Made by a program: the position numbers and the translations under genes. The notes beneath the pieces were generated by a model, which worked only from the letters and a program-made list of their open reading frames with translations, had not been told where the DNA came from and ran no database searches. Positions 8,067-41,443 of a stretch of DNA of 64,000 nt are shown piece by piece. The stretch spans positions 1 to 64,000 of IMG/VR virus record IMGVR_UViG_3300010160_000025; one strand, given 5' to 3'. Numbering within the stretch: position 1 is the first letter of the stretch; every line of letters starts with the position of its first letter. Source of the stretch: a virus.

Positions 8067-8795
8067 ATGTTTAGTTTTTTTAAAAAATCGCCGATTGTTT
8101 TTGCATGTAGTATACCTGCGGTATTACATCGATACCCAGTTGAATTAGCATCTAAAGTAAAACGCAGTTGGATTAAATCTAGTGTGGCTGCTTATAAACA
8201 TCAAGTACAGGCTATTGGAAAAACTCAAAGTGTGGCAGGCACAGCAAAGTGTCCCGGATTACATAACATAATGGGAGAAGGTTATATTCTTCGGTCATGG
8301 TTTGACTTAACTGTACAAACTACTAACGACGAGTATTCTTTTAATTGCACATTTCCGGCAGGCATGTCCAGTGTCTGCAAAGACAATAACTTTAATGAAG
8401 AACTAATATCTTCATTTTCAGGCAAACAACCAAACTTAGCAGTTCCGGTCTCTAACGGTAGTATTAAATCGTTAATCAAGATCAATACCCCATGGGCTGT
8501 AAAGATTCCCAAGGGCTGGAGTATGTTAATGTTGCCAGTTAGTTACGGCGATGATACTCGATTTACAGCAAAGCCAGGTATATTTACTGAGGGCGAGTTT
8601 TATACTATTAACCCTATAATTGAATGGCATGTTAAAAACTCTGTAGAAAAAATAGAAGCAGGTACTCCGCTATTGCAGATGATTCCAATTCGATCAGAGA
8701 AGGCGGAAGCAACTATTCAACTGTTTGACAATAGTTTTTATTTAAATCAAAAATATGCTAATTACGAAACTAATCACAAAAATGTTAGGAGCTAG
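8067..8795 (+). CDS. Unknown protein, halogenase-cluster paralogue family (copy A)
   Basis: 242 residues, function not recognised. It is a paralogue of the proteins at 21598-22323 and 23804-24541. Shared landmarks in order are a Lys/Ser-Cys-Pro/Ser-Gly motif ('KCPGLHNIM'), a 'EGYILRSWFDLTVQT' strand pair, 'NTPWAVKIPKGWSMLMLPV' (compare 'DSPWRIQEKTGVKFIFIQP' in copy B), a Pro-Gly turn, and 'IEAGTPLLQMIPI' before a less conserved tail. The pattern suggests an all-beta, possibly cupin-like fold, but I see no convincing metal triad. No signal peptide or membrane segment. It lies between two 2OG oxygenases; copies B and C lie next to halogenases. I infer a helper or enzyme working with these oxidative enzymes. 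Confidence 0.6.
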   Translation: MFSFFKKSPIVFACSIPAVLHRYPVELASKVKRSWIKSSVAAYKHQVQAIGKTQSVAGTAKCPGLHNIMGEGYILRSWFDLTVQTTNDEYSFNCTFPAGMSSVCKDNNFNEELISSFSGKQPNLAVPVSNGSIKSLIKINTPWAVKIPKGWSMLMLPVSYGDDTRFTAKPGIFTEGEFYTINPIIEWHVKNSVEKIEAGTPLLQMIPIRSEKAEATIQLFDNSFYLNQKYANYETNHKNVRS

Positions 8796-10069: not shown

Positions 10070-12038
<1,969 letters not shown>

Positions 12039-14725: not shown

Positions 14726-16279
14726 ATGCATATTGTTATAGTAGGAGGCGGAACCGCTGGTTGGGCAACAGCTCTATTAACAGCTAGTCGACATCCAAAT
14801 CACCAAATTACAGTAATTGAGTCTTCAAAAATTGGCATTATAGGAGTTGGTGAAAGCACCACTGGAAGATTGACAGATGTGCTGACTAATTTTATCTACG
14901 ATTTAGGCTGCGACCATGACGAATTTATCGTTGAGACTGGTGCTACCTTAAAATATGCAATCAAACACAAGGGATGGACCAGCGACATAGACGATTATTA
15001 TATTGGGCCAATCGACGGATCTTGGACCAAAGACAGCATTCCAGACCCTATGTTTAACTGGGGTATTAATAATTTAACCGATAAAGAACTGATAAATGTA
15101 TCGCAATGTGGTTTTTGGATTGACCAAGGCATGTCAAACTTCAATAAAGATAATGTGTTTGATAATTCTAGACATGCAATGCACGTAGATGCACATCTTG
15201 TGGGGAAATATTTTAAAAAAGTATGTTTAAGAAACAACAATGCTAGGCATATTGACAGCCAAGTACTAGATGTAAATCTACATCCCGAAAGCGGAGTTAT
15301 CGAATCTGTAGTTCTGCAAAATGGTGACACAATCAACGGCGATTTTTTCATTGACTGTTCTGGATTTAATAAAGTGTTGATGAATAAGTTAGGCGGTAAG
15401 TGGGTCAGCTATCAAGACAATTTACCAGTCAACACAGGACTACCATTCCAGTTAAAATATCTTGACGGAGAAATGCCAGAATCCTATACCACTGCATGGG
15501 CACAGAGTGCAGGATGGATGTGGCAAATTCCCCTGATGGATCGCAAAGGCTGCGGTTATGTGTTTGACGATAGATTTACAACTCCCGAAAAAGCACAGGA
15601 CGAGATTGAAATGCGTCTTGGTAGAAAAATAGATCCTATCAAAGTTATAAAGTTTAATACCGGCAGACAAGAATCTGCATGGATTAAAAACTGTATAACC
15701 ATTGGACTAAGTAGTGCATTTTTAGAACCATTAGAAGCTACATCTATTCATACAACAATAGTACAAGCACAGTGGTTTGTGTTTGAGTATCTAAAAGGTA
15801 CCGTAGAAGAAACTATAAACGAAGGTTCACGACGATTATACAATCAGCGTACTCGTACTATTTTTGACGATACTCGTGATTTTCTAGTAATGCATTACAT
15901 GGGCAATCGACGCGATAGTGAGTTTTGGAAGTACATTGGAACAGGAGCAACTAAAACTGAGTTTGTAGAAAATTTAATGTTATCAGCTAAAACAAAAATG
16001 CCAACTGCCGCAGATTTTCCGCAGTATAGTGGAAGTGCAGGTTGGGCGTTATACAGTTATGTAATGGCTGGTTTAAATTTACTAAACAAGAAAGGTGCAT
16101 GGGATAACGAGATGAGTCACAAGTTACCAAAGTACGGAGAATTGCGTTCATTATCTACAGAGATGCATTATAATATGCAAGACTTATGGACGTCTGAGAT
16201 GAAAAATAGACATTCATATAATGATTTTATAAAACATTTTAGACAACTACGGAAACAATATGGCTTTTCAGATATCTAA
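14726..16279 (+). CDS. Flavin-dependent halogenase, tryptophan-halogenase family (copy 1)
   Basis: 517 residues, full length for PF04820. The FAD-binding GGGTAGW is at 7-13 and 'GVGESTTG' at ~40-47. K76 in 'GATLKYAIK' matches the catalytic lysine (K79 in PrnA). The signature WMWQIP is at 264-269, and 'EPLEATS' at 334-340 holds the catalytic Glu equivalent E337 (PrnA E346). The residue after it is Ala, where PrnA has Ser347. The enzyme should use FADH2, O2 and halide to make HOCl or HOBr and halogenate an electron-rich ring. A flavin reductase partner is not seen in the window. It is coupled to an oxygenase gene that overlaps its end by 20 bases. The substrate need not be tryptophan. Confidence 0.93.
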   Translation: MHIVIVGGGTAGWATALLTASRHPNHQITVIESSKIGIIGVGESTTGRLTDVLTNFIYDLGCDHDEFIVETGATLKYAIKHKGWTSDIDDYYIGPIDGSWTKDSIPDPMFNWGINNLTDKELINVSQCGFWIDQGMSNFNKDNVFDNSRHAMHVDAHLVGKYFKKVCLRNNNARHIDSQVLDVNLHPESGVIESVVLQNGDTINGDFFIDCSGFNKVLMNKLGGKWVSYQDNLPVNTGLPFQLKYLDGEMPESYTTAWAQSAGWMWQIPLMDRKGCGYVFDDRFTTPEKAQDEIEMRLGRKIDPIKVIKFNTGRQESAWIKNCITIGLSSAFLEPLEATSIHTTIVQAQWFVFEYLKGTVEETINEGSRRLYNQRTRTIFDDTRDFLVMHYMGNRRDSEFWKYIGTGATKTEFVENLMLSAKTKMPTAADFPQYSGSAGWALYSYVMAGLNLLNKKGAWDNEMSHKLPKYGELRSLSTEMHYNMQDLWTSEMKNRHSYNDFIKHFRQLRKQYGFSDI

Positions 16280-16916
16280 TATTAAAGATGAGATCTTAGT
16301 AGTTGAGAATGTTGTTCCGCTACAATTACAAGATGCTATTATAGAAAGAGTACAAGGTGATCAGCATTTTCCCTGGTTCTTGTTGCATAGGATAGGGCAT
16401 CCTGATTATTTTGGGCCTGGTACAACACCTAACTATGCAGATTCCAATATCACAGACGATGTTGGGTTTTTTCACATGGCGTTTGATGGCAACGCCGCGA
16501 GCCCGCATTATGACTTTTTTAGATCTATATTAGATTTTTTTGCGGAAAAGGTAGATATCAAAATTAAAAATATACTTAGAATAAGATTGCGATATACTCA
16601 CAAAGGACAACATCACTCCAATAGCAAGTATTCAGCGCCACACGTTGATTTTAACACAGGTCAGCCATATTATACACTAGTGTATTATGTGGCCAACAGT
16701 GACGGGGATACTATTATCTTTGATAAGATTTTTCACCCTGAGCAAGAAGTATACGATCCAGCATTTGCCGATCCACTCCCTGAGCTGTTAAGAGTCACTC
16801 CTAAAAAAGGTTCTGGTTTATTTTTTAACGGTCATCGATATCATTCCGGAAACTATCCAATTGACTACAGTTCTAGAATAGTCATTAACTTTGATTTTGA
16901 AATCACGAAAAATTAA
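16260..16916 (+). CDS. 2OG-Fe(II) oxygenase family protein (HVD type)
   Basis: 218 residues with H128-x-D130 in 'SAPHVDFNTGQ', 'SDGDTIIFDKIF', distal H195 in 'GHRYHSGNYP' and R206 in 'SSRIVINFDF'. It starts inside the last 20 bases of halogenase copy 1, which implies translational coupling and a related job. It is closest in pattern to the proteins starting at 7508, 8798 and 21505. The 3' end overlaps by 14 bases the convergent oxygenase gene on the other strand. Possible role: hydroxylating the same substrate as the halogenase; this is inference. Confidence 0.82.
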   Translation: MAFQISNIKDEILVVENVVPLQLQDAIIERVQGDQHFPWFLLHRIGHPDYFGPGTTPNYADSNITDDVGFFHMAFDGNAASPHYDFFRSILDFFAEKVDIKIKNILRIRLRYTHKGQHHSNSKYSAPHVDFNTGQPYYTLVYYVANSDGDTIIFDKIFHPEQEVYDPAFADPLPELLRVTPKKGSGLFFNGHRYHSGNYPIDYSSRIVINFDFEITKN

Positions 16917-17520
16917 AAGATAGTGATACTCGGCGGTCGTCTTCGTCTGTTGTCATATTTTGTTCTACATAATGACTGAGATGGCCGGGAAATAATATTA
17001 ACATTCCTTCCGCTGGTACAAACCAATGTTCTGTATTAGTTCTACTGTTGTTAGTGTTTAACTTTTCATCGTAGATAATTTTAGTTAAAAAATTCATTCT
17101 GTCAGCTTCATTTTGTGCCCGTGTAAAATATATATTTCCACTATCTTTAGGAACTTTTAAGTAGTACACTCCACTAATAAAAGAAGAGCCGTGAGTATGT
17201 TCTCGGTTATATGTATATTTTGGATTTACATTATACCAATAACTAATTTTATCAGGTGAACAGGGTAGTTGCCAAGATTTAATAACTATTTTTGCGGCGG
17301 GAACTATATATTTTTCAAAAAGTTGCATTACGGGGTAGTTATCATAGTTGGGATTCCCCATCGCCAATGACTGCCACCCGCCAACATTACTTCTAATATT
17401 TCCCGGACTAGTTTGTTGCATTTGAAAGATGCTGTCAGTAATGCCCTGATTGTCCACTCCTTTTAAATAAGTAGTAAAGCAGGAAGAAACAAATAGTAAA
17501 TTTTCTTGTAGTGTAGTCAT
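16903..17520 (-). CDS. 2OG-Fe(II) oxygenase, 2OG-FeII_Oxy_5-like
   Basis: 205 residues from ATG 17520 (MTTLQEN). An upstream ATG at 17538 would put the TATAAATA box inside the gene, so 17520 is preferred. Landmarks: 'SYWYNVNPKYTYNREHTHG' with H108-x-H110, 'SGVYYLKVPKDSGNIYF', 'AEGMLILFPGHLSHYVEQN' with H183, and 'DRRVSLSFNFS'. This is the PF13759 pattern with all key residues. It is a single-gene unit on the minus strand between two plus-strand halogenase units, overlapping the end of the upstream oxygenase. Substrate unknown. Confidence 0.85.
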   Translation of the reverse strand: MTTLQENLLFVSSCFTTYLKGVDNQGITDSIFQMQQTSPGNIRSNVGGWQSLAMGNPNYDNYPVMQLFEKYIVPAAKIVIKSWQLPCSPDKISYWYNVNPKYTYNREHTHGSSFISGVYYLKVPKDSGNIYFTRAQNEADRMNFLTKIIYDEKLNTNNSRTNTEHWFVPAEGMLILFPGHLSHYVEQNMTTDEDDRRVSLSFNFS

Positions 17521-17525
17521 GAAAA

Positions 17526-17533
17526 TATTTATA
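17526..17533 (-). promoter_or_regulatory. T4-type late promoter box TATAAATA
   Basis: Perfect TATAAATA on the minus strand, five bases from the preferred ATG at 17520. As at 4123 and 21513 the distance to the start codon is very short. Confidence 0.5.
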
Positions 17534-17549
17534 AACATCGGCCTTTAAA

Positions 17550-19022
17550 ATGAACAAACTTGAAAAGATATCAATCATCGGTGGCGGCACGGCTGGCTTT
17601 GTTGCAGCCTTGATTTTAAAGACTAGATTCCCTCAAAAAACTATAGAAGTTATACGATCTACAAAAATTGGTATCATTGGTGTAGGCGAGGGCAGTACTG
17701 AACATTGGACAGAGTTTGTAAACTATATCGGTGTTAATCCCCGTGCAGTAATCTCCCATTGCGATGCTACATTTAAATCTGGAATTATGTTTAAGGGGTG
17801 GGGGAAGCACGACTACTTACATAGTATAGGCCCAGAATCTGATATTAGAAACGGGCAATACCAAGCAGTATACGGTAAACTAATATCAGAAGGTGCACCA
17901 AAAGAGCTGTTTAATCCAAGCCTTGCATGGCAGAATAGAATATTTGAACATCAGCTAGATCCAAATGAAATTTTACCCTACAATCAGTTTCATTTTAACA
18001 CTAACAAGCTGAACGAGTTTCTCACAACCGTGGCTAAACTAAAAGATATTAATGTTATAGATGATGAAATCGTTGATATTGAACTAAATGATCAAGGCGA
18101 AATTAAAAAAGTAATAGGAGAAAAACAATCCTACGAAGCAGATTTTTACATTGACAGTACAGGTTTTAAAAAAATATTAATTTCTAAGTTAGGTGCTAAA
18201 TGGCAAAGTTATAGTGAATATTTAAAAATGAATTCTGCTATAGTATTTCCAATAGAGGACACAGAAGAGTATAATATGTGGACTGTGGCGCAGGCAATGG
18301 ACTATGGCTGGATGTTTAAAATACCAGTTTGGGGACGTAGCGGCAATGGTTATATATTTGACAGTAACTATATCACACCGCAACAGGCCCAGGAAGAAGT
18401 TGAAAAGTTTCTAGGACACTCTATCACTGTTGGTAAACATTTGACATTTGATCCGGGCGCTTTAGATCAAGTATGGATCAAAAACTGCTGTGCTATTGGA
18501 CTAAGTGCAAGTTTTGTAGAACCGTTAGAAGCAACTAGTATTGGCTCAAGTATTCAACAATCATTTTTATTAATGCATCGTTTACCGAACTATAATGAAA
18601 AAACTATAAAAAGATATAACAAGGATGTTTCTGATATATTGACCAATATACGAGATTTTGTTATTCTTCATTATATAACCAATAGAAACGATACAGATTT
18701 TTGGAAAGATGTTGCTAAAATAAAACTTCCCGATAGCTTATCTGAGAATTTAGAAAAGTGGCGCAACAATCTGCCTATAGCAGAAGACTTTCGCGGAACA
18801 ACTGATTATGTCATGTTTAGAGAATCGCACTACATACATGTTCTCAACGGATTACGATTGTTTAATCAAGAAAATATTCGTCGAGAATATAAGATGCAAG
18901 CTCTTAAAATACAAGAGTGGGCCGACAGTGTAGTTAGAGAAAAACAAACATTTGAAAAACTCCACCCAAGTATTGGGCATAAAGAGTTTATAGGGCGCAC
19001 ACGTAATCTAGTTAAAAAATAA
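17550..19022 (+). CDS. Flavin-dependent halogenase, tryptophan-halogenase family (copy 2)
   Basis: 490 residues. FAD loop GGGTAGF at 11-17, 'GVGEGSTE' at ~44-51, lysine K76 in 'DATFKSGIMFKGW', and 'FVEPLEATS' with catalytic Glu equivalent E327. The signature at 254-259 is WMFKIP, with Phe in place of the second Trp of WxWxIP. In PrnA-type enzymes that motif keeps the flavin site from acting as a monooxygenase. Copies 1 and 2 share EPLEATS, while copies 3 and 4 have EPLESTG, so two subgroups are present. The gene stands alone on the plus strand, flanked by oxygenases on the minus strand, and its end overlaps the gene at 19008 by 15 bases. Confidence 0.9.
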   Translation: MNKLEKISIIGGGTAGFVAALILKTRFPQKTIEVIRSTKIGIIGVGEGSTEHWTEFVNYIGVNPRAVISHCDATFKSGIMFKGWGKHDYLHSIGPESDIRNGQYQAVYGKLISEGAPKELFNPSLAWQNRIFEHQLDPNEILPYNQFHFNTNKLNEFLTTVAKLKDINVIDDEIVDIELNDQGEIKKVIGEKQSYEADFYIDSTGFKKILISKLGAKWQSYSEYLKMNSAIVFPIEDTEEYNMWTVAQAMDYGWMFKIPVWGRSGNGYIFDSNYITPQQAQEEVEKFLGHSITVGKHLTFDPGALDQVWIKNCCAIGLSASFVEPLEATSIGSSIQQSFLLMHRLPNYNEKTIKRYNKDVSDILTNIRDFVILHYITNRNDTDFWKDVAKIKLPDSLSENLEKWRNNLPIAEDFRGTTDYVMFRESHYIHVLNGLRLFNQENIRREYKMQALKIQEWADSVVREKQTFEKLHPSIGHKEFIGRTRNLVKK

Positions 19023-19634
19023 TACTTGATTAATACGATGTATATTAAAAAATTCATTGGATGAAATATCCATCCCATGTAAAAATTTTGCGCCGTCAAA
19101 CATTATTAGTCGATTAAACTTTCCATCTAACTGTTTTATAATTTTATATTTGTTTTTTGGACGCCAGGGTGCAAAATGCTCAGGCGTATCCCACTCGTCT
19201 AGAGCAATCTGCTCGTATAGGTTGGTAACTCCCCCGCTGGCATTTAAATATATAATAGCATTATAACCCAGATCTCGATGCGGGCCCCAATAGTTATTTT
19301 TATAGTCGTTAAATTCTGTATCAATAAACTTAATGCAGTTTGTGTTAACTGTTCCAGGAGATCTTAGTGGTTGATTGCATATTATTGATAGCCCTATGCT
19401 AATTTCCTTAAACTGTTCATTATAAAAATTATGTCGACGATCTGTAAAATGTATATTATTAAATGATGGCGTTTCTTTTTCTTTCCAAAGTTTGGCAGGC
19501 TCTGTTAGAAACAAATAAGATAATAACTCATCTGGATATTTGTAAAAATCATCCATGATATATATGTTGGAGTCTTGAAACTTTTCTACTGTTATATTTT
19601 CAAGATTGTTAGTTTCAAAAATTTTATTTAACAT
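19008..19634 (-). CDS. 2OG-Fe(II) oxygenase-fold protein, DUF6445-like
   Basis: 208 residues. H119-x-D121 in 'NYWGPHRDLGYNAIIYLN', 'GGVTNLYEQ', 'NRLIMFDGAKFLHGMD' with distal H186, and R200 in 'FNIHRINQVLFF' give a complete jelly-roll dioxygenase set. The arrangement 'PHxD...NLY...MFdg..fHg' recalls the DUF6445 family, known from marine bacteria and phages near halogenases and oxygenases; that name is from memory and not checked. It starts one base after the stop of the next oxygenase upstream. Substrate unknown. Confidence 0.72.
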   Translation of the reverse strand: MLNKIFETNNLENITVEKFQDSNIYIMDDFYKYPDELLSYLFLTEPAKLWKEKETPSFNNIHFTDRRHNFYNEQFKEISIGLSIICNQPLRSPGTVNTNCIKFIDTEFNDYKNNYWGPHRDLGYNAIIYLNASGGVTNLYEQIALDEWDTPEHFAPWRPKNKYKIIKQLDGKFNRLIMFDGAKFLHGMDISSNEFFNIHRINQVLFFN

Positions 19635-19635
19635 G

Positions 19636-20217
19636 CTAATTAAAGTTCATTGCTATCGATATTCGATTCTCAGTATTTGTTCCAGGTTCTACCATGTGAC
19701 GAAGGTATGATCTAAAAATTAATAAAGATCCAACTTTAGGAGGATATCCTATTCTTGAAAAACTCAACTGGTTTCTTGAGGGTATATTTTTTATAGGGCA
19801 CATGTCAGGTTCTTTAGGATCTTCAAAAACAATTTCGCCTGACCCTTCAGGCGCACTAACATAATATACTGCACTGAAAACAGATCCATTGTGTGTGTGA
19901 AATTCTTGAAAGTTTTTTCCGGTAGATACATTTGCCCATGCGCCACCGTTTATATAGGATCCAGTTGACCCGTGCATTTTTGAAAATTCGTATATATGCT
20001 CAGTAACTGCGACTATCAGCGGTTTGAAAAGCGGATCAGTTCTTAAATCATAGGTACAGTGTGTATTGTACGTGTCACCGATCCATCCGTCGCCGCCATT
20101 GGGAATGGTTTCTTGCAATTTTAGTATAGCAGTTTCCCATATTTTATTTTGTTCCTTTGTGAATAAATCAGATTGATGATATATTGCCACTGGAAACCAT
20201 AATGCTACTTCAGCCAT
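19636..20217 (-). CDS. 2OG-Fe(II) oxygenase, 2OG-FeII_Oxy_5-like
   Basis: 193 residues matching PF13759: 'GGAWANVSTGKNFQEFHTHN' with H107-x-H109, 'FSAVYYVSAPEGSGEIVFEDP', 'VGSLLIFRSYLRHMVEPGT' with H174, and R185 in 'ENRISIAMNFN'. The usual LFPS is IFRS here. A GGCGGAT stretch before the ATG may serve as a ribosome site. It lies in a four-gene minus-strand operon (21505 to 19008) together with a methyltransferase and two other oxygenases. Confidence 0.85.
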   Translation of the reverse strand: MAEVALWFPVAIYHQSDLFTKEQNKIWETAILKLQETIPNGGDGWIGDTYNTHCTYDLRTDPLFKPLIVAVTEHIYEFSKMHGSTGSYINGGAWANVSTGKNFQEFHTHNGSVFSAVYYVSAPEGSGEIVFEDPKEPDMCPIKNIPSRNQLSFSRIGYPPKVGSLLIFRSYLRHMVEPGTNTENRISIAMNFN

Positions 20218-20923: not shown

Positions 20924-21505
20924 TTATAGGGGTTCTAAGTTAATATTAAGTATTACTCGTCTATTACTATTGATTGGATTACTAGCAGTATGATATCTAA
21001 GTCCGTTAAATGCTATTAGCCTATTTGCCTTAGGTGAAATACGTTGTTTAGTAGTAAATGTTGTTGGCCTATCCAATATTGTAAATTGTTGATTAAAAAA
21101 CCAAGTATCGCCATCAGAGTCGTTAAGATAAAAGATTAATACATCGTGGGGACACGGGTAATCTACATGTGGAATATTATAATTTTCAGATGTAAATCCA
21201 ACCTTTGGAGTTTTTTGACTTAGTCTAGCTCTCACTAGATGATCCCTTGTGTATCCTAATTCGTCTTCTAACCGGGCCATAAAAATATCAAGCCATTTAT
21301 ATGTAAAACTCTCAATACCAGATTGTCGGTCATATATTATATGGTGCAGGCCGTCTGTTTCAATGGCCATTGGATCTATTACATGATTTTCTTCGGGAGC
21401 GATTGATACCGTTTCAGCATAGAACCATGGAAACTCTTCGCTAAGAACCGCGCGGTGCCATCGATTAAAGTCGTCCAGTGGCAAAAAATTATCTATTATG
21501 TGCAT
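20924..21505 (-). CDS. 2OG-Fe(II) oxygenase family protein (HVD type)
   Basis: 193 residues with H113-x-D115 in 'NIPHVDYPCPHDVLIFYLN', 'SDGDTWFFNQQF', H172 in 'GLRYHTASNP' and R182/183 in 'NRRVILNINL'. First gene of the minus-strand operon that continues with a methyltransferase and two more oxygenases. A perfect TATAAATA lies seven bases before the ATG. Same subgroup as the proteins starting at 7508, 8798 and 16260. Substrate unknown. Confidence 0.84.
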   Translation of the reverse strand: MHIIDNFLPLDDFNRWHRAVLSEEFPWFYAETVSIAPEENHVIDPMAIETDGLHHIIYDRQSGIESFTYKWLDIFMARLEDELGYTRDHLVRARLSQKTPKVGFTSENYNIPHVDYPCPHDVLIFYLNDSDGDTWFFNQQFTILDRPTTFTTKQRISPKANRLIAFNGLRYHTASNPINSNRRVILNINLEPL

Positions 21506-21597: not shown

Positions 21598-22323
21598 ATG
21601 TTTGATATTTTTTTTAAAAGAAAGAAAATAGTTATAGACTGCTTTACTACCAACATAAATGCTCATAAGCTATTTCCTATACAACGTGCCGCAAGATTTT
21701 ATCCAGAATGGTGGAAGCAATTACCAAAAAGTGAAATGATAGAAAATAATGTTGGTTTACTAGTTGAGCGGCCAACAATAAAATCGTGTAGCGGGATTAA
21801 TAACTTGTATCAAGAAGGATTTGTGATCCCTTTATGGAGCGATGTAGTTATACAAACACGTGGCTTGAACTATTTGTTTACATTTGCTGATGGTGTTAGT
21901 TCGTTACCTTATCACAATTTAGACCAGTTAGGTTCAGATTTTTACGGATTTCTAAATATCAAATTTGATTCTCCTTGGAGAATACAAGAAAAAACAGGTG
22001 TTAAGTTTATCTTTATACAGCCTAGTTGGAATAATCCGATAGATTTGTTTAACAGCCATGCACTTCCGGGAGTTGTTGAATTTAAACATCAGCACACTAG
22101 CAATATAAACATGCTGATGTCTCGCCAACAACGATATCAGTGGGATGCTGGAAGGCCGTTGGCCCATGTAATACCAATTACTGATCAAGATATAGAAGTC
22201 AAAACACATCTAGTCGGCGAAGTTGAAGCTAGAGCTATGCAAGTTTTTAACCAACGTTCTCCATTTTTTTCAGGTTCGTACAAAAAGACTAAACAAATTA
22301 ATAAAGGAGTATGTCCGTTTTGA
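21598..22323 (+). CDS. Unknown protein, halogenase-cluster paralogue family (copy B)
   Basis: 241 residues, not recognised. Landmarks shared with copy A (8067) are 'IKSCSGINNLYQEGFVIP', 'WSDVVIQTRGLNYLFTFADG', 'DSPWRIQEKTGVKFIFIQP', 'LPGVVEFKHQHTSNINML', and 'WDAGRPLAHVIPI'. The tail 'QRSPFFSGSYKKTKQ' then 'KGVCPF' recalls the end of copy C ('NKKRCPYDK'). AGGA lies before the ATG. The last 13 bases overlap the start of halogenase copy 3, so the two are made together. The repeated coupling with halogenases suggests a dedicated partner, perhaps a substrate-binding, scaffold or reductase-like protein, but no cofactor motif is visible. Confidence 0.6.
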   Translation: MFDIFFKRKKIVIDCFTTNINAHKLFPIQRAARFYPEWWKQLPKSEMIENNVGLLVERPTIKSCSGINNLYQEGFVIPLWSDVVIQTRGLNYLFTFADGVSSLPYHNLDQLGSDFYGFLNIKFDSPWRIQEKTGVKFIFIQPSWNNPIDLFNSHALPGVVEFKHQHTSNINMLMSRQQRYQWDAGRPLAHVIPITDQDIEVKTHLVGEVEARAMQVFNQRSPFFSGSYKKTKQINKGVCPF

Positions 22324-23807
22324 AAATATCTAGCATAGTAATAGTTGGTGGTGGAACTAGCGGATGGCTCACAGCCGCTTACTTGTCAAATGCCTGTCCG
22401 GAAGTCTCTATAACAGTAATTGACAAAGAGATAGGAACTCCCATTGGAGTTGGGGAAGCTACCTTATTAAATTTTAAACCATTCATGGAAGAATGTGGAT
22501 TTGAAGTTGATGATTGGTTTTCTAAAATAGATGCTGGTTATAAATCTGGGATTTTATTCACAAACTGGTGTAAATCAAATCACGAAATTTGGCACCCGTT
22601 TTATAAAGGAAATCGAACAGTATCGATTGGCAATACAAAAAACAAACCGGTATACATGCACGATGTATGGTCAAAAGCACAACATCTTGATTTTAAGAAA
22701 TACAGTTTAGGCTACTACGAAGCATCTATTGATCACAATGTTGTTGATTCGTCAAGTTTGCACAACTATGCTTTTCATGTTGACTGCGGCAAGTTGGTTA
22801 CATACATTCAAGAAAAAATAAAAGATAAAATTAATATTATTCGTTCAGACGTTGTCAATGTTGTAGTTAATGATAGCGGCGGGGTCAAGCATTTAGAACT
22901 AAAAAATGGCAGTACAATCACTACTGATTTGTTTGTTGACTGTACTGGGTTTAAAAATCTATTAAGAGCTCCTAAAAAACGAGTTGATTTGACGGATCGC
23001 TTATTTGTCAATACCGCAGTGGTATGCCAAGTTCCTTATAAAGATCGCCCTGAAGAATTTAAACCATATGCTGTTTGTGATGCAGTGGATCATGGATGGA
23101 TATGGAAGATAGGTGTTAGTAGTCGTATAGGTAGCGGGTTAGTGTTTAACCGTGATCTTACCAGTATCGATGAAGCCAAACAATGTTTTGCAGATTACTG
23201 GAAAGGCCGAGTAGATATAGATAAAATTCGAGTGATTGATTGGACTCCGTTCTATAATAAAGATCAGTGGGAAGATAATGTTGTCAGTATTGGACTAAGT
23301 GCTGGATTTATTGAGCCACTGGAAAGTACAGGAATAGGGTTAATCACTGCTGGTATCACACAATTAAACAATGTTGTTAGAGAACAATATTATGACCAAG
23401 ACAATGTTGATTTTTTTAATCTACAAATGAAATTATATTTTGAAGACTGTGTTGATTTTGTATCAGGACATTATGCTAACAACAACAGAACAAGTAAGTT
23501 TTGGAATTTTGTCAAAGATAAATTTGAGCCTTCTGAAAAAATGAAATATTTTATTGAACATCTTGCTGACCCCACTATCAATATACCCTACAATGGCAAG
23601 TTTAACTTGATATTTGCAGGGGTTAACTGGTCGCTGATGTTATTACAACTTGGTTATCCTGTTGCTCCAAGAGATATCGATATCACAGATGAGCAAGCTG
23701 AAGAACTATTGATCAAGAACTATTTAAAATATGAAAAACATAAACATGTATGGTCTCGACCACATAGTTTAGAAGTAGATAGATTATCAGAAATAAGTAA
23801 ATTATGA
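22311..23807 (+). CDS. Flavin-dependent halogenase, tryptophan-halogenase family (copy 3)
   Basis: 498 residues. FAD loop GGGTSGW at 13-19, 'IGVGEATLLNF' at ~45-55, lysine K78 in 'DAGYKSGILFTNW', and 'GFIEPLESTG' with catalytic Glu equivalent E338 followed by Ser, as in PrnA (E346-S347). The signature at 263-268 reads WIWKIG: both Trp are kept, but the final Pro is Gly. An AAAGGAG site lies about six bases upstream of the ATG within copy B. The stop overlaps the next gene by four bases (ATGA). This gives a tight operon: copy B, halogenase 3, copy C, halogenase 4. Confidence 0.92.
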   Translation: MSVLKISSIVIVGGGTSGWLTAAYLSNACPEVSITVIDKEIGTPIGVGEATLLNFKPFMEECGFEVDDWFSKIDAGYKSGILFTNWCKSNHEIWHPFYKGNRTVSIGNTKNKPVYMHDVWSKAQHLDFKKYSLGYYEASIDHNVVDSSSLHNYAFHVDCGKLVTYIQEKIKDKINIIRSDVVNVVVNDSGGVKHLELKNGSTITTDLFVDCTGFKNLLRAPKKRVDLTDRLFVNTAVVCQVPYKDRPEEFKPYAVCDAVDHGWIWKIGVSSRIGSGLVFNRDLTSIDEAKQCFADYWKGRVDIDKIRVIDWTPFYNKDQWEDNVVSIGLSAGFIEPLESTGIGLITAGITQLNNVVREQYYDQDNVDFFNLQMKLYFEDCVDFVSGHYANNNRTSKFWNFVKDKFEPSEKMKYFIEHLADPTINIPYNGKFNLIFAGVNWSLMLLQLGYPVAPRDIDITDEQAEELLIKNYLKYEKHKHVWSRPHSLEVDRLSEISKL

Positions 23808-24541
23808 AAATAGTCAAATGGTCGTTCAATACCAGTCACGAATGGGATGTTGACCACCCGGAGTGCATTAAACCATTAGTAGATGGAGATTATTATCCGT
23901 TCAAACATCTAACTAAAGAAGCCACTGCTGTTAGAAAAGGCGCAACATTTTTAAAATGTCCGGCGCATACTGATTTTTTAAAAAATACATTTATATTCTG
24001 TGCTCCGTTTGACATAACAATAGAGCTTGATATAAAAGATGAAGGTGCAAGTAGGATATTTTGTGAAAACATTACCCAAGAACAATTTGAAAAATTAATT
24101 GATATGCGATTTTTATACAATGTTGACCGAGGTATTAATCCTTATCCGATTGTGGGTATTGATTGGTTGACTACTTTTCAAACTGACGAGTCTATGCTGT
24201 TACAAGTTTTTCCAGCTTTCATGCATCGTAATGATTTTACCGAAAAAGCAACAGTAGTCCCGGGGGAGTACGATATTAGCAAATGGACTAGGCCCGTTGA
24301 ATGTGTTTTTGAAGTTCGATCAAATGTTGAAAAGATTGTTATTAAAAAAGGTGATGCTATTTCTTATTTTAAATTTCACAGTGATGAAATCGTTAAACTT
24401 GAAAATCAACCAACACCGTGGCCAGATATACATCAGTGTAATGAAATACGTAATCAAAATGTATTCCGTCCTTTGAAAGAAAGATATCAGGCATTGGTTG
24501 AAGACAATAAAAAAAGGTGTCCGTATGATAAGCAAGATTAA
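23804..24541 (+). CDS. Unknown protein, halogenase-cluster paralogue family (copy C)
   Basis: 245 residues, not recognised. It is the most divergent of the three paralogues, but keeps the order 'FLKCPAHTDFLKNTFIF', a Trp-centred 'GIDWLTTFQTDESMLLQVFP' region, 'VVPGEYDISKW', 'IVIKKGDAISYFKF' and a Lys/Cys-rich end 'ERYQALVEDNKKRCPYD'. Predicted mostly beta, soluble, without signal peptide. It is sandwiched between halogenases 3 and 4, overlapping the former by four bases and the latter by 17 bases when the start at 24525 is used. Role unknown; the position argues for a partner of halogenase function. Confidence 0.6.
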   Translation: MKIVKWSFNTSHEWDVDHPECIKPLVDGDYYPFKHLTKEATAVRKGATFLKCPAHTDFLKNTFIFCAPFDITIELDIKDEGASRIFCENITQEQFEKLIDMRFLYNVDRGINPYPIVGIDWLTTFQTDESMLLQVFPAFMHRNDFTEKATVVPGEYDISKWTRPVECVFEVRSNVEKIVIKKGDAISYFKFHSDEIVKLENQPTPWPDIHQCNEIRNQNVFRPLKERYQALVEDNKKRCPYDKQD

Positions 24542-26087
24542 TAATATTGTAGTTGTTGGTGGTGGTAGTGCCGGTTGGATAGTGGCTACTACTCTGATAT
24601 CTCAGTTGCCCAATACTAAAATTACAGTGATTGAAAGTCCAAACATACCAACTGTTGGGGTAGGGGAAAGCACTATCGGTGGCATACGTGCATGGCTAAG
24701 ATTAGTTGGAATAAAAGACAATGATTTTATGTCTGCTTGTGATGCCAGTTACAAGCTAGCCATCAAATTTAATAATTTTTACAAACAAGATTCAGGGGCT
24801 TGGTATTATCCGTTTGGCGCTCCCTATTTGAAAGATACTATGCACGGGAGAGATGACTGGTTTATTAAAAAAACGCTGTATCCTAACACCCCAACAGAAG
24901 ATTATGCAAACACGTATTATTCTCAAATGGCTCTAGTTAATTCTAATACAATTCTTACAAACAATTTAGATCTAGATGGTTTTGATTTTTATAATCATAC
25001 AGCATTTCATTTTGATGCGGCCAAATTGGGAATATGGTTACGTGATCAATATTGTAAACCAAAAGGTATTAATCATATCGCCGCTGAAGTTGTAGAAATA
25101 ACACAGGATGATTCTGGAATTAAAGAACTTATATTGAGTTCAGGTGAAACAGTAACAGCTGATCTGTTTGTGGACTGTACTGGATTTAAATCATTGCTAC
25201 TGGGAGATGCACTGCAAGTTCCATTCAAAAGTTATGAACACCTATTGCCTAACAATCGTGCATGGGCCACTAGAATTGAATATACTGATAAAGAAAAACA
25301 ATTGGACTCAGTTACAGACTGTACTGCGTTAGATAACGGCTGGGTTTGGAATATACCTCTATGGAGTAGGATTGGCACTGGCTACGTTTACAGTGATAAA
25401 TTTATTAGTCCAGAACAAGCCAAACTAGATTTTATTACACATTTGCAATCAAAAGGGTACGATACTAAACATTGCGAATTTAGAGATATTAATATACGTG
25501 TAGGCATGCATGAAAAATTATGGGTTAAAAATGTAGTGGCTCTAGGTCTCAGTGCGGCTTTTATTGAACCATTAGAAAGTACTGGATTACTTACTACGCA
25601 CGATTTTGCTAAAACTTTGTGTAATGTGTTATTACGTGGTAGTGTTAGCCAATGGGATCGAGACGAGTTTAATTTAAAATGTGAAGATGAGTTTAACTAC
25701 TGGGCACAATTTGTAAGTATGCATTATGCATTGAGTCATCGAGACGATAGTGAATACTGGAGAGCCATTAGTAGGAAATCATTTACAGACTTAACACCAT
25801 TTGTTAATAAAATGCAAACTCAAGGTTTGTATTTTCAAACTATGTATCAAAAAAACTTTGTAAAATTTTTCCAAGACGACAACGGTATTAATTGCTTGGC
25901 GGCAGGAATGAACTGGAATCCCAACGACTATGTAACATTACGCAGTATATTTGCTGTTGGTACAGATCTAAGAGAAGAGTTTGGTCTAATTATTATGCGA
26001 TTAACTGAAAGACAAACAAAATGGAAAGAGGCTGTAAAAACAGCCCCTAGTCTATATCAGTATCTTAAAGATAAGTTTTATAGTTAA
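24525..26087 (+). CDS. Flavin-dependent halogenase, tryptophan-halogenase family (copy 4)
   Basis: 520 residues from ATG 24525 (MISKINNIVVVGGG). The frame is open from 24498, but 24525 has AGGTG six bases upstream and puts the FAD loop near the N-terminus, as in the other copies. GGGSAGW at 12-18, 'GVGESTIGG' at ~45-53, lysine K77 in 'DASYKLAIKF', WVWNIP at 273-278 (complete WxWxIP), and 'FIEPLESTG' with catalytic Glu equivalent E351 followed by Ser. All active-site landmarks of PrnA/RebH-type halogenases are present. The 3' end overlaps by four bases the convergent glycine-rich fibre gene. Confidence 0.94.
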   Translation: MISKINNIVVVGGGSAGWIVATTLISQLPNTKITVIESPNIPTVGVGESTIGGIRAWLRLVGIKDNDFMSACDASYKLAIKFNNFYKQDSGAWYYPFGAPYLKDTMHGRDDWFIKKTLYPNTPTEDYANTYYSQMALVNSNTILTNNLDLDGFDFYNHTAFHFDAAKLGIWLRDQYCKPKGINHIAAEVVEITQDDSGIKELILSSGETVTADLFVDCTGFKSLLLGDALQVPFKSYEHLLPNNRAWATRIEYTDKEKQLDSVTDCTALDNGWVWNIPLWSRIGTGYVYSDKFISPEQAKLDFITHLQSKGYDTKHCEFRDINIRVGMHEKLWVKNVVALGLSAAFIEPLESTGLLTTHDFAKTLCNVLLRGSVSQWDRDEFNLKCEDEFNYWAQFVSMHYALSHRDDSEYWRAISRKSFTDLTPFVNKMQTQGLYFQTMYQKNFVKFFQDDNGINCLAAGMNWNPNDYVTLRSIFAVGTDLREEFGLIIMRLTERQTKWKEAVKTAPSLYQYLKDKFYS

Positions 26088-27205
26088 TACTTGACAATAA
26101 CAACACCCGATCCACCGTCTGCACCATGTTGTCCGCCGCCACCGCCACCACCAGTATTAGCACCGCCAGTACCGCCTCGTGCTGTAGGTTGTCCGTTTTG
26201 ACCGGCATTAAACGACATACCGCCACCTACACCGTGTCTAGTTGGAGGAGCACCATATGGTCCAGCATGGTGACTCGATCCACCACCGCCACCACCAATG
26301 CCGCCATTATAGTGGCCAAACCCGTAGTGTGCGCCACCTGCGCCACCACCACCAAAATACATAACGCTGTTTAATATATCACTGGCAGCACCTGCACCAC
26401 CATTGTGGTCACAGCCGTTAAAACTGCTTCGACGATTAGTTCGTGTATCTGGAGCATCGGTGCCGCGGCCACCTGCACCACCACCGCCACCGCCCAGGTG
26501 AGCGTTGTCAGTTTCTTGATTGAAACGAACACCACTTCCGCCTGGAAATCCTTGACCCGCAGTACCAATACCCCCATAACTGCGAGTACGGTTATCAACG
26601 CCGTCACCAGTATTAGCGCCGCCGCCTCCTGTTGCACCAGAGCGACCCGGGGTATCAGTACGACCAATGGCACCCGGACTAGAATGACTCCAACTGCCAC
26701 CTCCACCGCCACCCAGTGCAGTTAATGATCCAAATACTGAGTTACCGCCATTTGGTCCTGCCACAGTAGGACTACGTCCGCCACCGCCGCCACCTACTGT
26801 GACAGGAACTCCGCTACCGTTTGTTACTGCATAGGATCGACTTTGAATGACTCCGCCACCGCCGCCACCACCGCACCAGTCATAGCCACTTGAGCCACCA
26901 CCACCGACTACTAGTACTTGCACATTTCCACTAAATGTTGGCGTAAATGTAGCAGTACCAACTGTGCTAAAAATATGTACAATACCGTTAGTCGTGTAAA
27001 ATATGCTGTCTCCGCCTGTGCCGATTAAGCCTGGTGAAAAGCCAGTTACTGGTCTCCATGCGGCACCGTCATAAAACTCTAAAGTATTAGATCCACTGGC
27101 TGTGCTGAATCGAATCTTTCCGGCAGCGCCTGCTGTACTTTGCGTTTGATTTGGCAAAGTCACTGCGGTAGTATTGTTAAACGTGGTATTTTGTAATATT
27201 GCCAT
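26084..27205 (-). CDS. Glycine-rich adhesin-like tail fibre protein (paralogue 1)
   Basis: 373 residues. The N-terminal ~90 residues ('SAGAAGKIRFSTASGSNTLEFYDGAAWRPVTG') form a fibre-attachment type domain shared by three tandem paralogues. A strand-rich bridge 'FTPTFSGNVQVLVVGGGGSS' follows. The remaining ~260 residues are dominated by glycine runs (GGGGGGGV, GGGGGGSW, GGGGGAGG) separated by short variable loops, ending 'SGVVIVKY'. This layout resembles the gp38-like adhesin of T-even phages such as S16, where polyglycine-II helices carry receptor-binding loops. Inference: a distal fibre-tip adhesin. Last gene of the long minus-strand virion operon. Confidence 0.75.
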   Translation of the reverse strand: MAILQNTTFNNTTAVTLPNQTQSTAGAAGKIRFSTASGSNTLEFYDGAAWRPVTGFSPGLIGTGGDSIFYTTNGIVHIFSTVGTATFTPTFSGNVQVLVVGGGGSSGYDWCGGGGGGGVIQSRSYAVTNGSGVPVTVGGGGGGRSPTVAGPNGGNSVFGSLTALGGGGGGSWSHSSPGAIGRTDTPGRSGATGGGGANTGDGVDNRTRSYGGIGTAGQGFPGGSGVRFNQETDNAHLGGGGGGAGGRGTDAPDTRTNRRSSFNGCDHNGGAGAASDILNSVMYFGGGGAGGAHYGFGHYNGGIGGGGGGSSHHAGPYGAPPTRHGVGGGMSFNAGQNGQPTARGGTGGANTGGGGGGGQHGADGGSGVVIVKY

Positions 27206-27218
27206 TTTTTATTCTCTA

Positions 27219-28367
27219 TTAGTATCTTACGATCACAATGCCTGCACCGCCGGCTGATCCATGGTTGCCATATTGGTACTGTGTTCCGCCGCCGCCGCCA
27301 CCTGTGTTGGCTCCACCATCACCTGCATTATTCTGTGCTGTACATGCGCCACCTGCATTTAGTGCCATGCCGCCACCTGGGCCATTAAAAAAGTTTGCGC
27401 CGGGCTGACGTGGGTTTCCGTGTTGTATACCAGCACCTCCACCTCCACCAATACCGCCTGCGGCTGCTGTAGTTCCGTTAGCTTGGTGAATAGCACCACC
27501 ACCACCGCCGCCCCAGTATAGGGTATAACCTAAAATATCACTGGCTGCTCCTGGTCCGCCATGTCCAAGACCGCCTTCGTGTGCATCGTCTGCGGCATTC
27601 ATGCCAGCTCCGCCAGCTCCGCCACCACCACCATTTGTGTGAGTATTATCGCCTTGGTTATTAAATCTCACACCACTTCCACCTGGGAAGCCTTGACCTT
27701 GAACGCCGAGGCCGCCAAAACATCGTTGACGGCTATCTGCAGGACCGTAACCGTATGGGTTTCCAGATCCATGGTCAGTAGTACATCCACCACCACCCGA
27801 ACCACCAGGTTGTCCTGCTTGACCGTCCCATGATCCGCCAGCTCCGCCACCATAACTAGTGATTGAACCAAATACTGAATTACTGCCAGTGTTTCCTCTA
27901 TTTGGAAAACTTGGACGAGGGGCTCCTGCTCCTACTGTAATAGGAATACCTGTGCCGCTTGATACTGAATATGCTCTGTTATAGATTACTCCACCACCAC
28001 CACCACCGCCACCAAGGTGAGATCCACCACTTCCGCCACCTGCGATTACTAACACTTCTACGGTGCCAGTGAATGCCGGTGTAAATGTAAAGTTACCCGT
28101 TGAGGTAAACATGTGTACTACGCCACTGGCTCTGTTGGCATTATTTGCAGTTGAATACATGATAGTATCACCGCCTGTGCCGATTGACCCTTTACTGATA
28201 CCAGTAACAGGTTTCCATCCAGTAGCATCATAAAATTCTAGTAAGTTACTTGCAGTATTAACACGAATCATGCCGGCTGTAGGCGAGCCCGGTCTATTAC
28301 CAGTAGTACTAATCGGTAATGTTACAGATCCAGTTTGATTAAAACTTGTTGTTTGTAGTTGTGCCAT
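27219..28367 (-). CDS. Glycine-rich adhesin-like tail fibre protein (paralogue 2)
   Basis: 382 residues, same plan as its two neighbours: 'GSPTAGMIRVNTASNLLEFYD' and 'GWKPVTGISKGSIGTGGDT', then 'GTVEVLVIAGGGSGGSHLGG', glycine-run region, and end 'GIVIVRY'. The loops between glycine runs differ from the other copies (e.g. 'HTNGGGGGAGGAGMNAADDA'), while the runs and the segment 'GQGFPGGSGVRFNNQGDNTH' are kept. This is what is expected for adhesins with variable binding loops on a fixed frame. Thirteen bases separate it from paralogue 1. AGAGAAG lies before the ATG. Confidence 0.75.
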   Translation of the reverse strand: MAQLQTTSFNQTGSVTLPISTTGNRPGSPTAGMIRVNTASNLLEFYDATGWKPVTGISKGSIGTGGDTIMYSTANNANRASGVVHMFTSTGNFTFTPAFTGTVEVLVIAGGGSGGSHLGGGGGGGGVIYNRAYSVSSGTGIPITVGAGAPRPSFPNRGNTGSNSVFGSITSYGGGAGGSWDGQAGQPGGSGGGGCTTDHGSGNPYGYGPADSRQRCFGGLGVQGQGFPGGSGVRFNNQGDNTHTNGGGGGAGGAGMNAADDAHEGGLGHGGPGAASDILGYTLYWGGGGGGAIHQANGTTAAAGGIGGGGGAGIQHGNPRQPGANFFNGPGGGMALNAGGACTAQNNAGDGGANTGGGGGGTQYQYGNHGSAGGAGIVIVRY

Positions 28368-28380
28368 TTATTCTTCTCTG

Positions 28381-29466
28381 TTAGTATCTTACGACAACAA
28401 TGCCGGAACCGCCAACGTTTCCACCACCACCGCCACCACCGCCACCACCGCCTGTGTTGGTTCCACCTGCACCGCCGCCAGTGCCGTGTGAGCCGTTTTG
28501 TGTAGCATCACCGCCTCGATTTAGTGCTTGTCCACCACCAAATCCGCAAGCTCTTGGTAATGGAGTTCCAGGATAATAGTGGGTAGCTCCGCCACCACCA
28601 CCACCAATACCGCCTTCGTCACCACCGCCGTCACAAATATGTGCGCCTGATGCGCCGCCTCCGCCCCAGTACAATACTTCACCTAAAATATCACTGGCTG
28701 CTCCGGGGCCACCTTGACTACTCATTCTGCTGTTACAATCAGGGGCATCACATCCGGGGCCACCTGCTCCGCCGCCACCGCCGGCGTGGTGTGTATTTTC
28801 ACCGTCATCGTTGTAACGTACACCTGATCCGCCTGGAAATCCCTGTCCTTGAGTTCCTAATCCGCCTGAAACACGGAAACGACTGCCGTCTGCACTAGTA
28901 CATCCTGCTCCGCCACCTGATCCGCCATTTCCGCCTGGGTTAGTTTGGTCCCAATAGCCCGAGCCGCCGCCGCCATAACTGGTGATTGATCCAAATGTTG
29001 AGTTTCCGCCGGCAGCAACTGCGGCAGGTGTACCTTGGTTTGAATTTCCTGCTCCACCGCCACCTACACTGAGAGAAATTCCTACGCCTGCACTAACTGG
29101 GTAAGAGCGTTGGAATACCATTCCGCCACCGCCACCACCGCCGTTCCAACCACCACCACTGTTGCCTCCTCCGCCGATTACTAGTACCTGTACATATCCA
29201 GTGTGCGCTGGAGTAAATGTTGCAGAGCCCACAGCGGTAAATGTATGACAGATTCCGCCGTTGCGTAATTGAGTAGTGCCGCCGCTGCCGATAATACCGT
29301 TACTGTATCCAGTTACTGGTCGCCAGTTTGTACCGTCGTAATATTCCAATAACCCAAAATCAGTATTGTAACGCATCATTCCGGATGATGGACTTGCTGG
29401 TCGCTGTGCTGTTGAGCCTGACGGTAATGTTAAGTCGGTAAATGAGGATGCTTGTAGCTGTGCCAT
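28381..29466 (-). CDS. Glycine-rich adhesin-like tail fibre protein (paralogue 3)
   Basis: 361 residues. N-terminal 'SSGMMRYNTDFGLLEYYDG' and 'TNWRPVTGYSNGIIGSGG', bridge 'GYVQVLVIGGGGNSGGG', then glycine runs up to eleven residues long near the C-terminus and end 'SGIVVVRY'. The shared 'GTQGQGFPGGSGVRYN' block identifies it as a paralogue of the two downstream genes. It follows directly after the S74-chaperone fibre gene (three bases apart). A receptor-binding tip role is inferred. Confidence 0.75.
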   Translation of the reverse strand: MAQLQASSFTDLTLPSGSTAQRPASPSSGMMRYNTDFGLLEYYDGTNWRPVTGYSNGIIGSGGTTQLRNGGICHTFTAVGSATFTPAHTGYVQVLVIGGGGNSGGGWNGGGGGGGMVFQRSYPVSAGVGISLSVGGGGAGNSNQGTPAAVAAGGNSTFGSITSYGGGGSGYWDQTNPGGNGGSGGGAGCTSADGSRFRVSGGLGTQGQGFPGGSGVRYNDDGENTHHAGGGGGAGGPGCDAPDCNSRMSSQGGPGAASDILGEVLYWGGGGASGAHICDGGGDEGGIGGGGGGATHYYPGTPLPRACGFGGGQALNRGGDATQNGSHGTGGGAGGTNTGGGGGGGGGGGNVGGSGIVVVRY

Positions 29467-41390: not shown

Positions 41391-41410
41391 TTTATATCAT
41401 CCTCTGATAG

Positions 41411-41418
41411 TATTTATC
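41411..41418 (-). promoter_or_regulatory. T4-type late promoter box GATAAATA
   Basis: GATAAATA on the minus strand, 20 bases before the giant fibre gene at 41390, with AGAGGA between as ribosome site. Confidence 0.5.
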
Positions 41419-41443
41419 TTTGTTGTATTTCTTATGTTTGTAA

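Follow-up and report, generated by a model that had tools for sequence, protein, structure and literature searches.

Predicted dUTPase-fold proteins encoded beside flavin-dependent halogenases in a T4-like phage

The locus described here raises the question of what is encoded by two genes that alternate with halogenase genes in a viral genome. The window is the whole 64,000-nucleotide stretch that was analyzed, positions 1 to 64,000 of IMG/VR virus record IMGVR_UViG_3300010160_000025. At 21598-26087, four plus-strand genes form a row in the order copy B, halogenase 3 (hal3), copy C and halogenase 4 (hal4), and the open reading frame (ORF) list and the sequence agree with a preliminary description of the locus that gave this order with successive overlaps of 13, 4 and 17 bases. 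Copies B and C, called the partners below, and a third member, copy A, belong to a phage family with a modeled deoxyuridine triphosphatase (dUTPase) fold and a site that looks rebuilt. Our favored reading, with a probability of about 0.5, is that the partner has an accessory role in a modification pathway of halogenases and 2-oxoglutarate (2OG) oxygenases encoded near tail-fiber genes. The hal4 start was taken as the ATG at 24525, and the mechanical ORF begins at TTG 24498.

21598..22323, plus strand: copy B, 241 amino acids, phrog_7084-type (phrog_7084 E = 2.1e-21), predicted dUTPase fold
22311..23807, plus strand: hal3, 498 amino acids, PrnA-like flavin-dependent halogenase (PF04820, 297.6 bits)
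23804..24541, plus strand: copy C, 245 amino acids, phrog_17480-type (phrog_17480 E = 5e-18), predicted dUTPase fold
24525..26087, plus strand: hal4, 520 amino acids, VirX1-like flavin-dependent halogenase (PF04820, 357.2 bits)
8067..8795, plus strand: copy A, third family member, flanked by 2OG-oxygenase-like genes (phrog_7084 E = 9.5e-38)

A partner family with a predicted dUTPase fold

Copies B and C are old, remote paralogues. BLASTP does not link B to C (best E = 2.0), relates A to B (E = 1e-13) and aligns A with C over a short stretch only (E = 8e-4). When family alignments are compared, the B type (46 sequences) matches the C type (15 sequences) with an hhalign probability of 94.7 and E = 6e-8, and the B and C models share the same fold. 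The paralogy claimed in the preliminary description is thereby upheld at the profile level as a distant relationship. The phrog_7084 profile spans most of A and B and reaches C at just E = 0.0099, and these comparisons show that all three copies are members of a widespread phage family that includes phrog_7084, phrog_17480 and, distantly, DUF6065 (PF19541). The whole 152.8 kb virus record holds two members of the B type (A and B) and one of the C type.

AlphaFold2 models of B and C, built from separate alignments, had a predicted local distance difference test (pLDDT) score of 85.1 and a predicted template modeling (pTM) score of 0.80 for B, and a pLDDT of 79.0 and a pTM of 0.75 for C. Foldseek searches of the PDB returned dUTPases as 50/50 of the matches listed for each model, with a best E of 3.4e-3 (probability 1.00) for B and 7.0e-4 for C. 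In BFVD, a library of viral structures, the B model matched uncharacterized phage proteins and then dUTPases. By sequence, the B-type profile matches the dUTPase Wsv112 (5y5o) in the motif III-IV region (E = 0.0045), and direct hhalign comparison of the B family with dUTPases aligns a hairpin in this region with motif III of E. coli Dut. That direct match is weak (E = 0.0043, probability 7.9), and the fold assignment therefore depends on the models. The relative S-CREM1_70, deposited as a 'triphosphate nucleotidohydrolase', points in the same direction. Based on the models, the partners very probably have a dUTPase fold.

Domain searches were largely negative. Copies A, B and C have no Pfam match above cut-off and no match to the dUTPase family PF00692, which is reached by 1/46 relatives at E = 0.14; a PF00692 gene was not found in the virus record. 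A, B and C do not match DUF6065 at E = 1. Among the phage relatives, 3/11 match it (best E = 2.9e-6), and a 'DUF6065 family protein' of Sinorhizobium pSymA matches the phage profile at 2e-39. Bacterial DUF6065 neighborhoods at 3 loci, one of them unannotated, gave no functional hint, a 146-genome sample of one phylum contained 1 match, and a literature search yielded no paper mentioning the domain.

The positions conserved in the family differ from those of dUTPases. In B numbering, C64, K122 and W127 are found in 46/46 family members, and C64, H106, K122, P126, W127 and K163 are invariant in 49/49 non-redundant sequences of the B branch. In the 46 members, the PRSG of motif II is absent and the region reads PVxYNN, the motif IV Arg is replaced by Pro (GTPLxQ), and the glycine-rich C-terminal arm of motif V is absent. 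The Asp of motif III (GxxDxxY) is present in 36/46 relatives, with B carrying Glu and A carrying Thr at that position, and the Tyr is present in 24/46. B and C are unlikely to be ordinary dUTPases because most catalytic motifs are gone and a different residue set is invariant. The conservation pattern looks like that of a site rebuilt for another ligand. Copy B was also considered as this phage's own dUTPase; the lost motifs disfavor the assignment, although the record shows no PF00692 gene.

The C termini are distinctive as well. Copy B ends in GVCPF (22300-22323) and copy C in RCPYDKQD (24515-24541). Many C-branch members have a C-terminal Cys-Pro, with the Cys kept in 12/15, and in cyanophage partner members a KCP motif occurs near the N terminus rather than a C-terminal Cys-Pro. 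Arrays of three or four tandem dUTPase-fold genes occur in other phage contigs (L123:9061-11319, L160:13323-15557 and L235).

Association of the partners with halogenases, branch by branch

Flavin-dependent halogenases require reduced flavin adenine dinucleotide (FADH2). The virus record contains exactly four PF04820 genes, all inside the window, and hal3 and hal4 score far above the 21-bit cut-off of this family. The other two are listed below.

14726..16279, plus strand: halogenase 1 (hal1), PF04820, 305 bits
17550..19022, plus strand: halogenase 2 (hal2), PF04820, 321 bits

The closest PDB match of hal3 is PrnA (7e-61) and that of hal4 is VirX1 (6qgm, 1e-106). In the tree of halogenases, hal3 groups with its orthologues in a separate clade (support 100/100) that is distant from hal4, and hal4 clusters with VirX1-like enzymes. 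The Lys of the K71 column and the Glu of the E345 column are invariant in 16/16 aligned halogenases, hal3 and hal4 included, and a GGG motif (GxGxxG test) is seen in all four window halogenases. The WxWxIP motif is retained in hal1 and hal4 (WVWNIP in hal4) and reads WMFKIP in hal2. In hal3 it is replaced by WIWKIG, with the catalytic Lys and Glu retained; the L008 orthologue of hal3 also has WIWKIG. From its sequence, hal3 may catalyze a different reaction.

VirX1 is a prized biocatalyst and was the first viral flavin-dependent halogenase to be characterized. Cyanophage Syn10 CPUG_00131 is VirX1, the start residue being the sole difference over the 530 residues aligned to PDB 6qgm. The 3' end of CPUG_00131 overlaps a downstream partner gene, CPUG_00130 (phrog_7084-type), by 17 bases. 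The extent of this arrangement was measured with a VirX1-type scan in which six cyanophage seed genes led to 80 loci and 29 non-redundant members; the neighbor counts cover part of 211 VirX1-type and 147 B-type hits. A halogenase lies directly upstream in 29/29 non-redundant members of the VirX1-type branch, compared with 5.2 expected and a maximum of 12 in shuffled gene orders, and the adjacency is conserved to about 45% partner identity. The C branch has immediate halogenase neighbors in 11/15 members (expected 4.0, maximum 9 in shuffles), and the other 4/15, all on cyanophage-type contigs, adjoin oxygenase-like genes.

The B branch behaves differently. With its own alignment, 6/48 non-redundant members adjoin a halogenase (3.8 expected) and 17/48 adjoin an oxygenase-like gene, a count that no shuffle reached (9.8 expected). 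Copy A likewise has no halogenase neighbor and sits between 2OG-oxygenase-like genes. The mixed other branches are halogenase-adjacent in 5/18 cases. Single-sequence IMG/VR scans with B and with A gave no matches, the patterns being too specific, and the family alignments succeeded. The closest copy A homologues from cultured phages adjoin a halogenase in Syn10, S-RIM44, P-TIM40, Sf-FR1, Sf-FP1 and S-CREM1, and not in Sf-CH8 or S-RIM4. A 188-kb sequence filed as Nonlabens xiamenensis (L177, NZ_RMVE01000006.1) is nearly as long as the genome of cyanophage P-TIM40, shares its gene layout over the part compared and is probably a phage contig within the assembly. The preliminary description proposed a dedicated halogenase partner family and a neighbor count as its check. 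The count supports the proposal in part: it does so for the VirX1-type and C branches and does not for the B branch, where homologues lie mostly away from halogenases, the outcome that the description named as refuting.

Candidate roles of the partner

In the favored reading, the partner would have an accessory role in a modification pathway. It would bind a substrate shared with the neighboring enzymes, or tailor it further, through a putative site that includes C64, H106, K122, W127 and K163. In the VirX1 and hal3-C branches it would cooperate with the halogenase next to it, and elsewhere in the family with 2OG oxygenases; reduced flavin would be supplied by the host. Virion proteins, metabolites and nucleotides are all candidate substrates. 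The oxygenase and tail genes near the row are as follows.

16260..16916, plus strand: 2OG-Fe(II) oxygenase-like, HxD motif (HVD), phrog_274 (1e-25) and phrog_61 (2OG, 1e-3)
16903..17538, minus strand: 2OG-Fe(II) oxygenase, PF13759 (3e-20), phrog_81 (1e-35)
19636..20217, minus strand: 2OG-Fe(II) oxygenase-like, HTH motif resembling that of PF13759 relatives, matched by a profile built from window ORFs
20924..21505, minus strand: 2OG-Fe(II) oxygenase-like (HVD), divergent and just upstream of copy B, PF13640 (8e-4, below cut-off), phrog_274 (5e-33)
26084..29466, minus strand: three tandem paralogous glycine-rich proteins (GGGGG runs) of the tail region, the first matching phrog_2295 and phrog_863 (tail fiber assembly)

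The 2OG label has independent Pfam support for 16903-17538 and is based on weak Pfam or PHROG matches, HxD/HxH motifs and profiles seeded from window ORFs for the others. Proteins at 16260-16916, 20924-21505 and 19008-19634 are labeled in PHROG as 'DNA endonuclease V' (phrog_274) or 'minor coat protein' (phrog_1644) and resemble 2OG-Fe(II) oxygenases or cupin-like proteins; the labels are probably wrong for these proteins. Orthologues of the glycine-rich proteins border the cluster in 8/9 relatives. These proteins may form receptor-binding tips and might be substrates of the cluster.

Several observations weigh against an accessory role in such a pathway. Gene adjacency is no proof of a shared pathway. 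The seeds of the VirX1-type scan were themselves halogenase-adjacent, so that 29/29 describes that branch and not the family. In the B branch, 42/48 members are not halogenase-adjacent and 36/48 loci lack any halogenase, and the bacterial DUF6065 genes examined have no halogenase neighbor. On the structural side, the Foldseek E-values are moderate (4e-3 to 7e-4), template modeling scores, when normalized to the dUTPase, range from about 0.4 to 0.6, and the direct hhalign comparison with dUTPases, weak for B, gave no match for C. The motif III Asp retained in 36/46 members makes nucleotide binding possible.

Narrower versions of the accessory role are less secure. The preliminary description suggested a substrate carrier or specificity factor, and this remains a doubtful assignment. 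We would advance only tentatively the specific proposal that a dUTPase-fold protein was rebuilt as the natural partner that recognizes or carries the substrate of VirX1-type halogenases, with the same family serving the 2OG oxygenases of the cluster.

The partners and halogenases could instead be separate cargo without a functional link, adjacent through hitchhiking in a hypervariable host-recognition region. The host-recognition cluster of related marine T4-like phages is hypervariable, with differing tail fibers and accessory genes (PMC7029224), B, C and hal4 come and go among relatives, and most B-branch members are located elsewhere. Hitchhiking does not readily account for adjacency in 29/29 and 11/15 members, far above the shuffles and kept to about 45% partner identity, nor for the overlapping starts and stops and a hal3-C order kept in 7 relatives. 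We regard it as rather unlikely.

Nucleotide chemistry is a further alternative, in which the family consists of nucleotide enzymes or binders (divergent dUTPase, dCTP-deaminase-like or counter-defense proteins) and its presence in halogenase clusters reflects a nucleotide substrate or an incidental neighborhood. The modeled fold of B and C, the motif III Asp and the deposited name of S-CREM1_70 are consistent with such a role. The two nearest genes per side of 23 B-type genes away from halogenases include ribonucleotide reductase (RNR), true dUTPase, dCMP deaminase, dGTP diphosphohydrolase, clamp loader and DNA polymerase, each once or twice, and RNR also lies near partner relatives in HCTV-11 and S-RIM4. 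These neighbors are a lead, and not a test, for nucleotide binding because such genes are common in phages, and early genes form a general background there. The loss of PRSG, the motif IV Arg and motif V and the Glu of B and Thr of A in motif III argue against nucleotide chemistry, as does the failure of any member to pass PF00692 (best E = 0.14). In one phage, a true PF00692 dUTPase gene lies close to the family member, which is therefore not the dUTPase of that phage. On balance a nucleotide role is unlikely.

The flavin reductase suggested in the preliminary description is highly improbable: the FADH2 requirement of halogenases and the absence of PF01613 from the whole virus record leave room for such an enzyme, but B and C have the modeled dUTPase fold and no Pfam reductase match.

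Mosaic origin of the row and comparison with known systems

Comparison with relatives shows that the four-gene row is a mosaic of single-gene gains or losses around a conserved hal3, because the genes around hal3 vary among nine relatives. These nine contigs retain the frame of hal2, oxygenase-like genes and hal3, and the surroundings of hal3 differ. Three (L093, L094 and L145) carry hal3-C-hal4 with B absent, and two (L209 and L211) carry B-hal3-C with hal4 absent. In L212, B-hal3 is followed by another halogenase; L214 has B and two hal3 copies, with C farther off; L173 has hal3-C plus an unrelated halogenase; and L175 has hal3-C alone. Gains and losses are not distinguishable in this synteny comparison. 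A true tandem duplication of a hal3-type halogenase is seen at L214:6756-9697, where each copy is 58% identical to hal3 and C is shifted downstream.

A tandem duplication of a partner-halogenase cassette, as the preliminary description had it, would explain the alternating gene order and the remote homology of B and C. It is contradicted by the halogenase tree, approximately unbiased (AU) tests and synteny. Constraining the window hal3 and hal4 as a pair costs 549 log-likelihood units (AU p = 6e-7), and constraining all hal3 and hal4 orthologues together is also rejected (p = 0.017). Copy B clusters with A and not with C, and the arrangements in relatives include hal3-C-hal4 lacking B, B-hal3-C lacking hal4, and B-hal3-hal3' with C displaced. 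Duplication of B-hal3 into C-hal4 was rejected on these grounds and has very little probability left.

The virus is a T4-like phage, because tail-sheath-stabilizer and tail-fiber/baseplate genes flank the cluster on both sides. The interval between tail-sheath and tail-fiber genes that the cluster occupies corresponds to the host-recognition cluster of related marine phages (PMC7029224). In the late structural region, GroES-like and GroEL genes (10070-12038; phrog_5725 chaperonin groEL, E = 1.6e-144) lie near copy A. The stretch 31026-50773 holds two giant ORFs on the minus strand (3454 and 3109 amino acids), which are followed by baseplate-wedge/tail-fiber genes. A psbA/psbD-type gene (PF00124) was not found in the whole virus record.

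Phage halogenases, the PHROG families and 2OG clusters were already known. As far as the searches reach, the dUTPase-fold assignment of the two partner types, the set of invariant residues, the branch-wise halogenase link that includes VirX1 and the mosaic origin are new. One paper contains dUTPase, phage and halogenase together and does not connect them in its available text. A predicted fold is now given for two PHROG families and pointed to for DUF6065, and the idea of a duplicated cassette is corrected. The substrates listed for VirX1 in the available part of a review are synthetic aromatics (PMC8407142). A conserved, overlapping neighbor with a predicted fold and invariant residues is a concrete handle on the role of VirX1 in the phage and, if the halogenase-partner reading is true, would open a route to the native VirX1 substrate. 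Chlorotryptophan has been suggested as an antibiotic protection (PMC9964418; PMC2984593).

The closest known arrangement is VirX1 and CPUG_00130 of Syn10. VirX1 is the nearest PDB relative of hal4 and a partner gene adjoins it there too; the window differs in that a C-type gene precedes hal4 and hal3 resembles PrnA rather than VirX1. A jumbo cyanophage cluster, that of S-SSM6a, likewise brings together a halogenase and several 2OG enzymes. The available text on that cluster, of halogenase, 2OGFeDO and cupin, proposes secondary metabolite synthesis or polysaccharide decoration; it mentions carbamoyltransferases and sugar enzymes but no dUTPase-fold gene (PMC7824862).

The partners share with trimeric dUTPases (PF00692) the predicted fold and a motif III-like hairpin. 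They are about 100 residues longer, lack motif II, motif V and the Arg of motif IV, and have the invariant C64, H106, K122, W127 and K163. DUF6065 proteins have the same architecture as the phage partners and, unlike the phage partner branches, the bacterial copies examined have neither halogenase nor 2OG neighbors. The PHROG matches are phrog_7084 for A and B and phrog_17480 for C. The entries of these two families carry no function or fold; here, both receive dUTPase-fold models and a measured link to halogenases.

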